A DNA stretch of 64,000 bases from Pararhodobacter marinus (lineage in GTDB: Bacteria; Pseudomonadota; Alphaproteobacteria; Rhodobacterales; Rhodobacteraceae): positions 124,001 to 188,000 of the forward strand of contig NZ_QEYD01000008.1 of assembly GCF_003122215.1 (NCBI RefSeq). The letters are read 5' to 3'. The translations under genes were made by a program, and so were the position numbers. Every line of letters begins with the position of its first letter. Within the stretch, counting starts at the first letter, position 1. Below are positions 31,380 through 38,597 of this stretch, in pieces. A model generated the notes under the pieces. It did no database searches. It had not been told where the DNA came from and worked only from the letters and a program-made list of their open reading frames with translations.

Positions 31380-31404
31380 AACGCGCAGGCGGCGCAATGG
31401 TTCC
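31380..31404 (-). promoter_or_regulatory. Sigma-EcfG type promoter of the DUF883 gene
   Basis: Reading the minus strand, GGAAC (31400-31404) and CGTT (31380-31383) are 16 bp apart, which matches the known EcfG general stress promoter. The start codon of the DUF883 gene is about 40 bp downstream. Confidence 0.8.
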
Positions 31405-31528: not shown

Positions 31529-31554
31529 GGAACCAACTGCCCCCTGGCGCGGTT
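31529..31554 (+). promoter_or_regulatory. EcfG-like promoter upstream of the DUF1328 gene
   Basis: GGAAC (31529-31533) is followed after 16 bp by CGGTT. The -35 is exact and the -10 differs from CGTT by one inserted or changed base. It would serve the DUF1328 gene and perhaps dps. Confidence 0.55.
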
Positions 31555-31789: not shown

Positions 31790-31879
31790 GGGCAGACGGG
31801 CGCCGGGCGGTCTCTTCCGCCCGGCGCATCCGGCCCTTCAACCCCTCCCAACTTGATCCCAAGATACCAGAGGTTTGTT

Positions 31880-32383
31880 ATGAAAGATGTCCGCAACGTT
31901 TCGCCCGAAGCCGTCAAGGTGAATACCGGCGTGAAGAAGCCCGCCGAGGTTTCCGAGAAGCTGGCCGAGATCCTGACCGGCACCTATGAGCTGCTGATCC
32001 GCACGCACGAGGTGCACTGGAACGTCGAAGGCCCGATGTTCTACGGCGTGCACATGCTGACCGAAGAGCAATATGGCGAGCTGTTCGCCGCCACCGACGT
32101 TCTGGCCGAGCGCATCCGCGCGCTGGGGCATCTGGCGCCGGCGACGCCGAAGGCTCTGGTCGATACCAGCGGCGACACCGTCGCCGGAGAAAAGACCACG
32201 ACGGCCAAGATGCTGACCATGCTGAAGGACCGTCACGAGGCGCTGGCGCGTCTGTGCCACGAAACGACCGATCTGTGCGAAGGCGAGGATGTCAACGATC
32301 CCGTCACCGCCGATCTGTGCAACGGGCGGTCGGCCGTGCATGAAAAGGCCGCGTGGATGCTGCGGTCGATGGCGGCGGACTGA
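31880..32383 (+). CDS. dps: Dps-family DNA-protecting ferritin
   Basis: The 167-residue protein has the Dps ferroxidase residues spread over HEVHWNVEGPMFYGVH and DVLAERIRALG, and the expected four-helix length. Dps dodecamers bind DNA and oxidise iron with peroxide. The ATG at 31880 is chosen; the ribosome binding site is weak (AGAGG about 10 bp upstream). Placement in the general stress island fits the usual EcfG control of dps. A GC-rich hairpin without T run (32398-32418) follows the stop. Confidence 0.92.
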   Translation: MKDVRNVSPEAVKVNTGVKKPAEVSEKLAEILTGTYELLIRTHEVHWNVEGPMFYGVHMLTEEQYGELFAATDVLAERIRALGHLAPATPKALVDTSGDTVAGEKTTTAKMLTMLKDRHEALARLCHETTDLCEGEDVNDPVTADLCNGRSAVHEKAAWMLRSMAAD

Positions 32384-32571: not shown

Positions 32572-33384
32572 TCACGCGCGGAGCGTTTCCGTCGACGAGA
32601 AGAACATCGCCTGGCTGACCGCCGAGCGGACCTGTTCCTCGGTATAGGGCTTGGTGATGACGAAGGCGGGCTCGGGGCGTTCGCCCGTGAGCAGACGCTC
32701 GGGGAAGGCGGTGATGAAGATCACCGGGGTATCCTTGGCGGTCTTGAGGATCTCGTTCACAGCCTCGATCCCCGACGACCCGTCCGCAAGCTGGATGTCC
32801 GAGAGGATCAGGTCGGGCTTCTCGCGCCCGAACAGCTCGACGGCCGCCTTGTGGGTGGGCGCCACGCCGGTGATGCGGTGGCCCATATCGGCGACGATGG
32901 ATTGCAGATCCAGCGCGATGATCGCCTCGTCCTCGATCACCAGAACGCGGCCCGACACGCTGTCTTCCATGTCACGCAGCGCCAGGGCGTAAAGCTCGCG
33001 TACCTCGGAGGCGTCCATGTCCATGATCGTGGCAACCTCGTCTTCCGAGAATTCCTCGATCGTCTTCAGCAGAAGAACCTCACGCGTATTGGGGGCGAGC
33101 TTGGCCAGATGCGCCTGGGCGCGTGCCGAGATCCCGCTTTCGGTGTCTTCCGTCAACGCCCCCGAGGACGACCAGATCGCGTGGAACGCTTTGAACAGCG
33201 CCACCTTGTGCGAGTAGTCGCCGTCAAAGACCGAACGGTCGATGAGCAGTGCCTCCAACGTCAGGGCCGCATACTTGTCGCCGGTAAGCTGGCTGCCACT
33301 CAGGGCGCGTGCATACCGGCGCAGATAGGGCAGAAGGTCGGCAACGATGGTTGACAGGAACTGTTCCTTCTGAGCGATCGGCAT
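32572..33384 (-). CDS. phyR: General stress response regulator PhyR (anti-anti-sigma)
   Basis: The 270-residue protein joins an N-terminal sigma-factor-like domain (about residues 1-135) to a C-terminal receiver domain (about 145-262), with the phosphorylation site Asp196 in LILSDIQ, the acidic pocket EDE at 151-153 and a KPYT lysine. When phosphorylated, PhyR binds NepR and frees EcfG. It is divergent from nepR-ecfG and shares an overlapping promoter region with them. The next kinase downstream of ecfG is a likely phosphate donor. Confidence 0.97.
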   Translation of the reverse strand: MPIAQKEQFLSTIVADLLPYLRRYARALSGSQLTGDKYAALTLEALLIDRSVFDGDYSHKVALFKAFHAIWSSSGALTEDTESGISARAQAHLAKLAPNTREVLLLKTIEEFSEDEVATIMDMDASEVRELYALALRDMEDSVSGRVLVIEDEAIIALDLQSIVADMGHRITGVAPTHKAAVELFGREKPDLILSDIQLADGSSGIEAVNEILKTAKDTPVIFITAFPERLLTGERPEPAFVITKPYTEEQVRSAVSQAMFFSSTETLRA

Positions 33385-33414
33385 CTTTTTTTCTGTCCTT
33401 TTCGCGAAATTCTT

Positions 33415-33439
33415 GGAACCAAACGCGTGGACAGGGGTT
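33415..33439 (+). promoter_or_regulatory. EcfG-type promoter of nepR-ecfG
   Basis: GGAAC (33415-33419), 16 bp, GGTT (33436-33439). The -10 differs from CGTT by its first base. It occupies the same DNA as the opposing phyR promoter. Confidence 0.72.
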
Positions 33440-33446
33440 TGGTTCC
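33422..33446 (-). promoter_or_regulatory. EcfG-type promoter of phyR
   Basis: Reading the minus strand, GGAAC (33442-33446), 16 bp, CGTT (33422-33425), an exact match. It overlaps the nepR-ecfG promoter; together they sit in a perfect 10-bp inverted repeat with a 12-bp spacer (33415-33446). Confidence 0.85.
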
Positions 33447-33496
33447 CGACCTAGTAAGAATTTTGTCAGGTTGAGGGCCGTTTGCCGAAGGACGCC

Positions 33497-33667
33497 ATGC
33501 AGCAAGATAATCACAACAATGCGCTGGAAGACCAGATCGCCGAGAACCTTCGCCGGGCGTTCAGTGAACGTGCTGAAGAAAAGGTGCCGGACAGGTTCAT
33601 GGATCTTCTCCAGCAACTGAGAGAGCAGGATTCACCCCGCAACGATCGGTCGTCGAATGACAACTAA
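33497..33667 (+). CDS. nepR: Anti-sigma factor NepR
   Basis: The 56-residue protein carries the NepR core ENLRRAFSERAEEKVPDRF followed by MDLLQQL. NepR holds EcfG inactive until phosphorylated PhyR takes it away. The ATG at 33497 is the likely start; a TTG 15 bp upstream would extend the product slightly. Its end overlaps ecfG by 11 bp in another frame, so the two are translated together. Confidence 0.93.
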   Translation: MQQDNHNNALEDQIAENLRRAFSERAEEKVPDRFMDLLQQLREQDSPRNDRSSNDN

Positions 33668-34232
33668 AAGCCCCGTCGTGGATCCGCGCGACGAAATCGT
33701 TACCCATCTGGGTCCGATGCGGGCCTTTGCGCTGTCGCTGACACGCAACGGCGCAGAGGCCGACGACCTTGTGCAGGAAGCGCTGGTCAAGGCCTGGAAG
33801 AATATCGAAAGTTTTCAGGTCGGCACGAATATGCAGGCCTGGCTGTTCACCATCCTGCGCAACACCTTTTACTCGCTCCGGCGCAAGCGCTCGCGCGAGG
33901 TGGCCGACCCCGACGGCATCGCCGCAGGGCAATTGTCGGTCAAGCCCGCACATGACGGGCGGTTGCAATTGTCGGAGTTTCTCGAAGTGTTCGCCCAGTT
34001 GCCGGTCGAACAGCGCGAAGCTCTGGCACTGGTCGGGGCTTCGGGGTTCTCCTACGAGGAAGCGGCGGCGATGTGCGGCGTGGCGGTGGGGACCATCAAG
34101 AGCCGCGCCAATCGTGGGCGCGCGCGCCTCGTTGAAATGTTGCACGCTGGCGAAGACGGCTACGGGGACATGACGGATCGTGTCACCTCGGCCATCGTGA
34201 ATGCCGGCGCCCAGGGACGACTAACCGCGTGA
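33657..34232 (+). CDS. ecfG: ECF sigma factor EcfG (general stress response)
   Basis: The 191-residue protein has sigma region 2 (RAFALSLTRNGAEADDLVQEALVKAWKN, split by the helix turn) and region 4 (VEQREALALVGASGFSYEEAAAMCGVAVGTIKSR, likewise), as in EcfG/SigT. It directs RNA polymerase to GGAAC-N16/17-CGTT promoters, several of which are visible in this window, including the one before its own operon. It overlaps nepR by 11 bp and the kinase gene by 4 bp. Confidence 0.96.
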   Translation: MTTKSPVVDPRDEIVTHLGPMRAFALSLTRNGAEADDLVQEALVKAWKNIESFQVGTNMQAWLFTILRNTFYSLRRKRSREVADPDGIAAGQLSVKPAHDGRLQLSEFLEVFAQLPVEQREALALVGASGFSYEEAAAMCGVAVGTIKSRANRGRARLVEMLHAGEDGYGDMTDRVTSAIVNAGAQGRLTA

Positions 34233-35971
34233 GCAGAAGGGTGACGTGGCCATTCCGGGGGCTGGCCACGAGAATTGCAGGAACGCTAGCAATCGCGCTG
34301 ATGCCCATCGGCGCGATTGCCGTCTATCAGGCCGTGCAGATTGCCGCCGAAGAGCAGAGCCGCATGGAAGTGGCGCTGCTGACCTCGACGGCCGAAGCGG
34401 CGGCGGGCGAGGCGCTGGCGATTTCCTCGGCCTCGGGCGCGGTCGCGACGCTGGCGGCGATGGTCGCGGCGAATGCGGGCCCGACGGATGGCTGTTCGGA
34501 CATGTTTCGCAACGTGGTGCGCGATACGCCGCAATACTCGTTTGCGGGCTATGTCTCGGCCGATGGTATCCTGCAATGCGGCTCGGCCGATGTCGGGCGC
34601 GACATGACGGACGGGCTTTTGTTCCCGCGCATGGATGTCGAGCGCGAGCCGATGGTTCTGGCCAGCGGCTTCGGCTCGATCAGCGGAACCTCGGTCATCG
34701 TCTCGGCCGCGCCGGTCTATGACGGGCGCACCTATATCGGCTTCGTCGCCGTGTCGGTGCCCCATTCGCGGATCTTCGGCATCCCCGGCAGCGCCGGGCT
34801 GGAACAGTCGATCAACATCATCACCTTCAACGCGAACGGCGATCTGTTGTCGGCCGACCGCGAATTCGGCCAGGTCGAGGCGACCCTTCCCGTGGGCCGG
34901 CCTCTGCCCTCTTTGGTGTCGAACCGGCAATTCGCCTTCACCGCCATGTCGGCCGGCGGCGAACAGCGCGTCTTTGCCGTGGTGCCCATCATTCCGGGCG
35001 CGGTTTATGCGCTGGGCAGCTGGCCGCGCGAGGCGCTGGGCTGGATGCGCCTGTCGCCCGTCCTGTTCCCGGTGCTGATGCTGCTGACCGGGTTGATCGT
35101 GGCTTTCGGGGCGGTCAACGCGCTGGTCATCCGCTATATCCGCAAGCTCAAGGACAACCTGAACGAATTCTCGCGCTCGCGCCGCATCCTGCCCCTGTCG
35201 TCCAACCGCGCCTCGCTGCCGCAGGAACTGGTCGACATCGACGAGACCTGGAGCGATCTGGCCAATCATCTGGTGCGCGACGAGGCCGAGCTGGAAAACA
35301 TGGTGCACGAAAAGAGCGTCTTGCTCAAAGAGGTGCACCACCGCGTCAAGAACAACCTGCAACTTATCGCCTCGATCGTGAACCTGAAGATCCGCCGCGC
35401 GACCTCGCCCGAGGCCCGGCGGTCGCTGAGGGAAGTGCAGATGCGGGTGATGTCGATCGCCGCCGTGCATCGCGCGCTTTATTCCGAACCCACCAGCGGT
35501 CAGGTGCGGGCGGACGATCTGCTGAACACGGTGGTCAATTCGACCATCGCGGCGGGCGTGACGGACGAACGTCAGATCACCATCGAGCAGGATTACGCGC
35601 CGATCCTTCTGTACCCCGACCAGGCGGTGCCGCTGCTTCTGATGGCGACCGAAGCCGTCACCAACGCCCTGAAATACATGGGCCGGCGGGAAGATGGTGA
35701 AGCGTCGCTGCGGATCTCGCTGGAAGCGACGACGGATACCGAGGCCACGCTGCGGGTGGTCAATACCTGCGGCACGCCCTTCGTCCCGCGCGAACAGGTG
35801 CTGGGTTCGGGGCTGGGTCGGTCGCTGATCGCCGGCTTCGCGACGCAGGTCGGCGGCGTCGTCACCACCGACGTGACCGAGGATTATTACGATTTCCGGC
35901 TGGTCTTCGAAGGCTCGGTCTTCGATCCCGACCCGGCCGATCACAACGTTCCCGAACTGGATGACGAGTAA
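34229..35971 (+). CDS. HisKA_2-type sensor histidine kinase, likely PhyK-like
   Basis: The 580-residue protein starts at a GTG overlapping the ecfG stop. It has a first membrane helix (about 15-36), a periplasmic sensor region of about 230 residues with two cysteines, a second helix (about 276-300), a HAMP-like linker, the HisKA_2 box EVHHRVKNNLQLIASI with the phospho-acceptor His370/371, and an ATPase domain with TEAVTNALKY and GSGLGRSLI. Kinases of this family at the phyR locus phosphorylate PhyR. The signal sensed is unknown. Confidence 0.92.
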   Translation: MSRRVTWPFRGLATRIAGTLAIALMPIGAIAVYQAVQIAAEEQSRMEVALLTSTAEAAAGEALAISSASGAVATLAAMVAANAGPTDGCSDMFRNVVRDTPQYSFAGYVSADGILQCGSADVGRDMTDGLLFPRMDVEREPMVLASGFGSISGTSVIVSAAPVYDGRTYIGFVAVSVPHSRIFGIPGSAGLEQSINIITFNANGDLLSADREFGQVEATLPVGRPLPSLVSNRQFAFTAMSAGGEQRVFAVVPIIPGAVYALGSWPREALGWMRLSPVLFPVLMLLTGLIVAFGAVNALVIRYIRKLKDNLNEFSRSRRILPLSSNRASLPQELVDIDETWSDLANHLVRDEAELENMVHEKSVLLKEVHHRVKNNLQLIASIVNLKIRRATSPEARRSLREVQMRVMSIAAVHRALYSEPTSGQVRADDLLNTVVNSTIAAGVTDERQITIEQDYAPILLYPDQAVPLLLMATEAVTNALKYMGRREDGEASLRISLEATTDTEATLRVVNTCGTPFVPREQVLGSGLGRSLIAGFATQVGGVVTTDVTEDYYDFRLVFEGSVFDPDPADHNVPELDDE

Positions 35972-38572: not shown

Positions 38573-38597
38573 AACGTCCGGGCGTGAGATCGGTTCC
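38573..38597 (-). promoter_or_regulatory. EcfG-type promoter of the PRC-barrel gene
   Basis: Reading the minus strand, GGAAC (38593-38597), 16 bp, CGTT (38573-38576): an exact EcfG match, about 50 bp before the start codon. Confidence 0.82.

Follow-up and report, generated by a model that had tools for sequence, protein, structure and literature searches.

The stretch of DNA analyzed here, 64,000 nucleotides in length and hereafter the window, contains a PhyR-NepR-EcfG locus, identified by gene order and Pfam domains: phyR is divergent from nepR-ecfG, and the encoded proteins have the expected domains. The phyR gene (32572–33384, minus strand) encodes a response regulator of 270 aa with a sigma-like domain, an anti-anti-sigma factor (PF22029, PF22233, PF00072). 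On the plus strand, nepR (33497–33667; PF18557) encodes an anti-sigma factor of 56 aa when read from the ATG at 33497, ahead of which there is an in-frame TTG at 33482. The end of nepR is overlapped by ecfG (33657–34232, plus strand), which encodes an ECF sigma factor of 191 aa (PF04542, PF08281), and the next gene after ecfG encodes an HWE/HisKA_2 histidine kinase (34229–35971, plus strand; PF07568, PF07536). Likely ribosome-binding sites can be read ahead of both units, AGGA for phyR (33396–33399, minus strand) and AAGGA for nepR (33488–33492, plus strand). By PhyR identity (88%), the window stands near Pararhodobacter.

Between the two units lies what we describe as an interlocked two-way EcfG promoter (33415–33446, assigned to neither strand), on the basis of a direct read, a chance test, and conservation upstream of phyR in the family. 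The element reads 33415 GGAACCAAACGCGTGGACAGGGGTTTGGTTCC 33446. Its arms, GGAACCAAAC and GTTTGGTTCC, are perfectly complementary over 10 bp and stand 12 bp apart, so the perfect inverted repeat reported in a preliminary description of this DNA is there in the letters. The plus strand carries GGAAC-N16-GGTT, with the -35 box of the nepR-ecfG promoter at 33415–33419 and its -10 box at 33436–33439; the minus strand carries GGAAC-N16-CGTT, with the -35 box of the phyR promoter at 33442–33446 and its -10 box at 33422–33425. The consensus for EcfG has been given as GGAAC-N16-CGTT in Rhizobium etli (PMC3892343) and as GGAAC-N16-17-C/GGTT in a study of Rubellimicrobium (PMC12148442), and both strands conform to it with a spacer of N16. 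The earlier proposal of an EcfG-type promoter on each strand, each with its -10 box inside the spacer of the other, thus agrees with the direct read and the published consensus. The two -10 boxes have no base in common, and all boxes of both divergent promoters fall within 33415–33446, that is, within one polymerase-binding site, as expected of a two-way promoter. An EcfG-dependent start is expected some 6–8 bp beyond the -10 box. Given this geometry, each transcript should start at the -35 box of its partner, which would put the two starts about 32 bp apart. The composite pattern has one match in the window and none in 100 dinucleotide shuffles.

Additional EcfG-like sites lie near the locus and upstream of open reading frames, at 31380–31404 (minus strand), 31529–31554 (plus strand), and 38573–38597 (minus strand). 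The reading frames behind them were judged by eye, and we take them to encode DUF883-like, DUF1328-like, and PRC-barrel-like proteins, respectively. Because the window holds six N16 sites of the C/G type, against 0.55 expected, and also a Dps/ferritin-like gene (31853–32383), the region around the locus is a small stress-response island. Two other matches were set aside. One, at 33343–33367, lies inside phyR and is probably due to chance. The other is a two-way match elsewhere in the genome (contig C1, 198411–198438; genome-wide checks were done as pattern searches), which lies inside a recombinase-like reading frame and has a 2-bp offset that is trivial, since GTTCC already contains GTT.

The distribution of the element was examined in 296 genomes, a sample of the family at close to one genome per genus, with the pattern GGAACNNAACN{9,13}GTTNNGTTCC. 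The exact composite occurs in 75 of these genomes, at exactly one site in each, and a reversed control pattern has matches in 2. A PhyR search was run on the same set, and by its coordinates 74 of the 75 sites are immediately upstream of PhyR; the remaining one belongs to a genome whose PhyR match begins at a contig edge. With a single site per genome, nearly always at PhyR, the composite is a feature of the phyR locus alone and not of the EcfG regulon in general. Lengths of 30 to 34 bp were allowed, and only 32 and 33 bp were seen, corresponding to spacers of 16 and 17; a variant one base shorter between one -35 box and the partner's -10 box was found in 31 further genomes, in all of them at PhyR. 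Adding and classing the sequence ahead of the other PhyR genes gave a total of 137 PhyR-bearing genomes of the family. The full interlock is present in 108 of the 137, which answers for the layout of the repeat the question of conservation in related genomes raised by the preliminary description. Both GGAAC boxes are present 30–34 bp apart, with at least one damaged -10 box, in another 15 genomes, and 14 have neither the interlock nor paired -35 boxes.

Dinucleotide shuffling of the upstream regions of 154 relatives produced no interlock in 15,400 trials, and in most of these relatives' loci the outer GGAAC..GTTCC boxes lie 31–33 bp apart. In the window and 80 named relatives, an overlapping promoter pair is found at 70 loci, a 71st pair being a second match, offset by 2 bp, in a locus already counted. 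When the named relatives are placed on a PhyR tree, those without the interlock are scattered (7 changes, of which well-supported branches force at least 6), and the interlock is present on either side of the deepest fork; this distribution suggests an ancestral layout that was lost several times within the family. A search by gene order returned matching genomes only from the window's family.

Several loci in the family have features of their own. Seven relatives, many of which belong to Rhodobacter/Tabrizicola, have a further EcfG-like site next to the interlock; it points towards nepR and would release nepR-ecfG from competition. Genomes with two or more PhyR genes contribute several upstream regions without an intact EcfG pair (six loci), and in such genomes another copy may keep an intact promoter pair. 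The locus of Dinoroseobacter shibae is on a plasmid and keeps the interlock, at 33 bp. In Roseobacter litoralis, phyR-nepR-ecfG is on a plasmid, and an EcfG site was not found in the intergenic region.

Outside the family, a class-wide alphaproteobacterial draw of 60 PhyR loci, 59 of them with a long enough upstream region, contains no interlock (0 of 59), which makes the interlocked form look like an innovation of the window's family. Nine of the class-wide loci, from seven families, have back-to-back promoters with an offset of 31–34 bp, and the rest have more distant promoters, a single promoter, or no match. The -35 boxes were measured at ten back-to-back loci and are 5–9 bp apart. This layout, with its near-constant offset, may also limit simultaneous polymerase binding. 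Three loci of one genus carry a conserved palindrome, GGAACC-N15-GGTTCC, before phyR, in which each -10 box would fall within the opposite -35 box. Its 2-bp offset is trivial and it was left out of the interlock counts; it could represent another two-way promoter, tighter than the interlock, or have arisen by chance from the sequences of the boxes.

We consider it probable that the element is a fully interpenetrating two-way EcfG promoter that admits EcfG-RNA polymerase in one orientation at a time, and that it likely acts as a ratio lock. The sequence, its specificity to the locus, its conservation in the family, and a variation matching two promoters are established, and from them we infer that both directions fire, that binding is mutually exclusive, and that there is a regulatory effect. 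One face would start phyR, the anti-anti-sigma factor, and the other nepR-ecfG, the anti-sigma factor together with the sigma factor. Owing to the complete overlap, the EcfG holoenzyme would occupy a single orientation at any moment. That polymerases exclude each other on these 32 bp can be soundly inferred from the overlap and from the precedent of sigma70 bidirectional promoters, where a polymerase already bound keeps the second one off (Warman et al., 2026, PMC12825309). At low free EcfG the two directions would be independent; as EcfG rises, total output would be capped and the phyR:nepR-ecfG initiation ratio would be fixed at the ratio of the binding rates. The net effect would be to lock the ratio at the partner switch, with neither direction winning.

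A steady-state model makes these expectations more specific. Under exclusion, the modeled output ratio equals the binding-rate ratio at every holoenzyme level, whereas unequal promoters that stand apart converge on the same output at saturation. For a 2:1 pair, loss of one direction raises the other up to 3-fold at saturation. Cross-effects between the directions arise in the model only at high occupancy, as in E. coli, where five bidirectional promoters at basal activity show no effect of one direction on the other, transcription being too weak, and interference sets in once one direction is strongly activated (PMC12825309). On this modeling, competition should lower the other output only at high occupancy, and a fixed phyR:nepR initiation ratio is likely the firmer prediction. 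The preliminary description had proposed that RNA polymerase holds only one promoter at a time, that the synthesis of PhyR and of NepR/EcfG therefore competes, and that phyR wins. The first part we retain, on the strength of the complete overlap and the sigma70 precedent; the second would apply at high occupancy, according to the model, and fails at basal activity, both in the model and by the E. coli data (PMC12825309); the third we do not keep.

The prediction that phyR wins was drawn from a -10 mismatch on the plus strand. GGTT is within the published C/GGTT consensus (PMC12148442), however, and a GGTT site is also found at a neighboring gene in the window (31529–31554). Nor is there a consistent bias across relatives: among the 71 overlapping pairs, the -10 box is CGTT in 57 phyR and 48 nepR promoters, and loci with one decayed -10 box are split 8 to 8 between the directions. 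In the nearest genus, where the nepR -10 box deviates in three of four loci (TGTT, TGTT, and GGTT) against CGTT for phyR, a local lean towards phyR is possible.

The significance of a shared polymerase slot would lie in the PhyR:NepR ratio, which decides whether EcfG is free, so that the gain of the general stress response would be determined by this slot. Tentatively, we suggest that the interlock is a selected either/or device, invented once near the base of the family, which fixes the ratio of anti-anti-sigma to anti-sigma factor and caps feedback. If so, the synthesis ratio would be fixed at all sigma levels, the positive feedback of the stress response would be capped, and the Rhodobacter family would, close to its base, have adopted the interlock where other Alphaproteobacteria have separate or abutting promoters. 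Weighing against the interlock model, the genomes without the layout (14 of 137) and the extra nepR-direction sites in relatives indicate that the interlock is dispensable.

A possible alternative, short of probable in our judgment, is that both promoters work and that their overlap has no regulatory consequence, being a compaction that arose once and has been frozen since, because separating the promoters within a short shared stretch needs several simultaneous changes. Shared descent would by itself lead one to expect a fixed offset, as an insertion or deletion in the center alters both spacers together. Moreover, the basal activity of the E. coli bidirectional promoters is too low for competition (PMC12825309), and separate or back-to-back promoters suffice in other families. 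Yet the layout is kept in 108 of 137 genomes sampled at the level of genera, though a change of one base can disable one side, and lineages with extra promoters show that such gains can occur.

We think it unlikely that the element is an active EcfG promoter in a single direction, with the other match decayed or secondary and phyR or nepR mainly started elsewhere. Some relatives do have a single intact -10 box, but both cores are intact in 108 genomes, the decay falls on the two directions alike (8 to 8), and promoter function is the only one known to fix GGAAC and GTT at 16–17 bp on both strands. A further point in favor of a single active direction comes from Rhodobacter sphaeroides, where phyR and ecfG mRNAs answer different stresses (PMC5830050). 

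One of the genomes in our sample, which we take to be Rhodobacter (Cereibacter) sphaeroides 2.4.1, has the interlock GGAACCGAACGCGGGCACCGGCGTTCGGTTCC, with symmetric core boxes, and a NepR-like reading frame of about 68 aa facing phyR; a NepR-like protein of 68 aa has been reported for this strain (PMC5830050). The same study places a start of the nepR-ecfG unit upstream of nepR by dRNA-seq (PMC5830050), in keeping with the plus-strand promoter. By qPCR at 7 min, membrane stress was the only condition to raise ecfG mRNA, in a PhyR-dependent manner, and phyR mRNA rose 2–3 fold under singlet oxygen, superoxide, and diamide, with no rise under membrane stress (PMC5830050). These limited data do not plainly support a simple ratio lock: either there is a second phyR promoter, or the mRNAs differ in stability, or the directions are not simply locked. 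Since the two mRNAs respond to different stresses, our confidence in the ratio lock is lowered, and the same data also count against phyR as the winner.

The reading as two overlapping promoters, on which the ratio lock depends, can be compared with the way the element varies. On either strand the fixed letters are GGAAC and GTT, the latter preferably preceded by C; arm positions 6, 7, 11, and 12 are variable and the sequence of the center is free. Because the search pattern required the fixed columns, the zero rate of change there is not independent evidence, and the independent evidence for promoters in these alignments is the enrichment at phyR together with the spacer lengths. Under a loose pattern, the spacer pairs are 16/16, 17/17, 16/17, 17/16, and few others, and where the offset changes, the spacer length is still 16–17 on either strand. 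Arm position 7 underwent 31 inferred changes, with a matching change in both arms on only 2 branches. Its letters match in 41 of 74 cases against 30 expected, a slight excess that may reflect relatedness or sigma preference. Spacers of 16–17 bp, a free center, and arms that vary largely independently point to two overlapping promoters and not to an operator or a hairpin, either of which would preserve the match between the arms. An operator for a dimeric transcription factor is accordingly very improbable: it would fit the perfect 10-bp arms in this genome and the slight excess at position 7, but the half-sites do not co-vary (2 matching changes among 31), the span differs by one or two bp (31–33 bp), and the invariant letters belong to EcfG boxes whose spacers match. 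An RNA hairpin or terminator is scarcely credible, for although the strand gives a stable fold (-17.3 kcal/mol, z -4.8), the predicted transcripts start at the outer edges and neither would carry the repeat, pairing at positions 6–7 is not kept in relatives, and no T-run follows the repeat.

The component parts of this arrangement are known, and its interlocked geometry, restriction to one locus, and family-wide conservation appear undescribed; no conserved interlock was found in the literature searched, which consisted mainly of open papers. Across the class, the PhyR-NepR-EcfG locus has the same genes in the same divergent order, with EcfG-type promoters for both units, which are described as EcfG-driven (PMC8103513, PMC4814048); here the promoters interpenetrate in 32 bp, and the published accounts searched make no mention of such an overlap. 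The bidirectional promoters that Warman, Grainger, and colleagues describe in E. coli and in further prokaryotes (PMC12825309) are alike in that divergent transcripts start from a short pseudo-symmetric sequence and a bound polymerase shuts out a second one. In those promoters the sigma70 -10 elements are shared or abutting and the starts are most often 18, 10, or 23 bp apart, whereas the element described here has no shared or overlapping -10 box, both of its promoters are of the ECF type, the two starts are predicted at a distance of about 32 bp, and the arrangement is conserved at a single orthologous locus throughout a family. The closest counterpart by gene content is the orthologous pair rsiA1-rpoE2 and rsiB1 of Sinorhizobium meliloti, where both promoters are RpoE2-dependent and the starts of rsiA1 and rsiB1 have been mapped (PMC3616915). 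There, the layout is back to back, with an offset of 31 bp and -35 boxes 5 bp apart, and the promoters do not interpenetrate. Interlocked and back-to-back promoters thus serve the same gene pair in different families, a natural contrast that makes the purpose of mutually exclusive promoters directly testable, with only a few dozen bp of sequence to swap.
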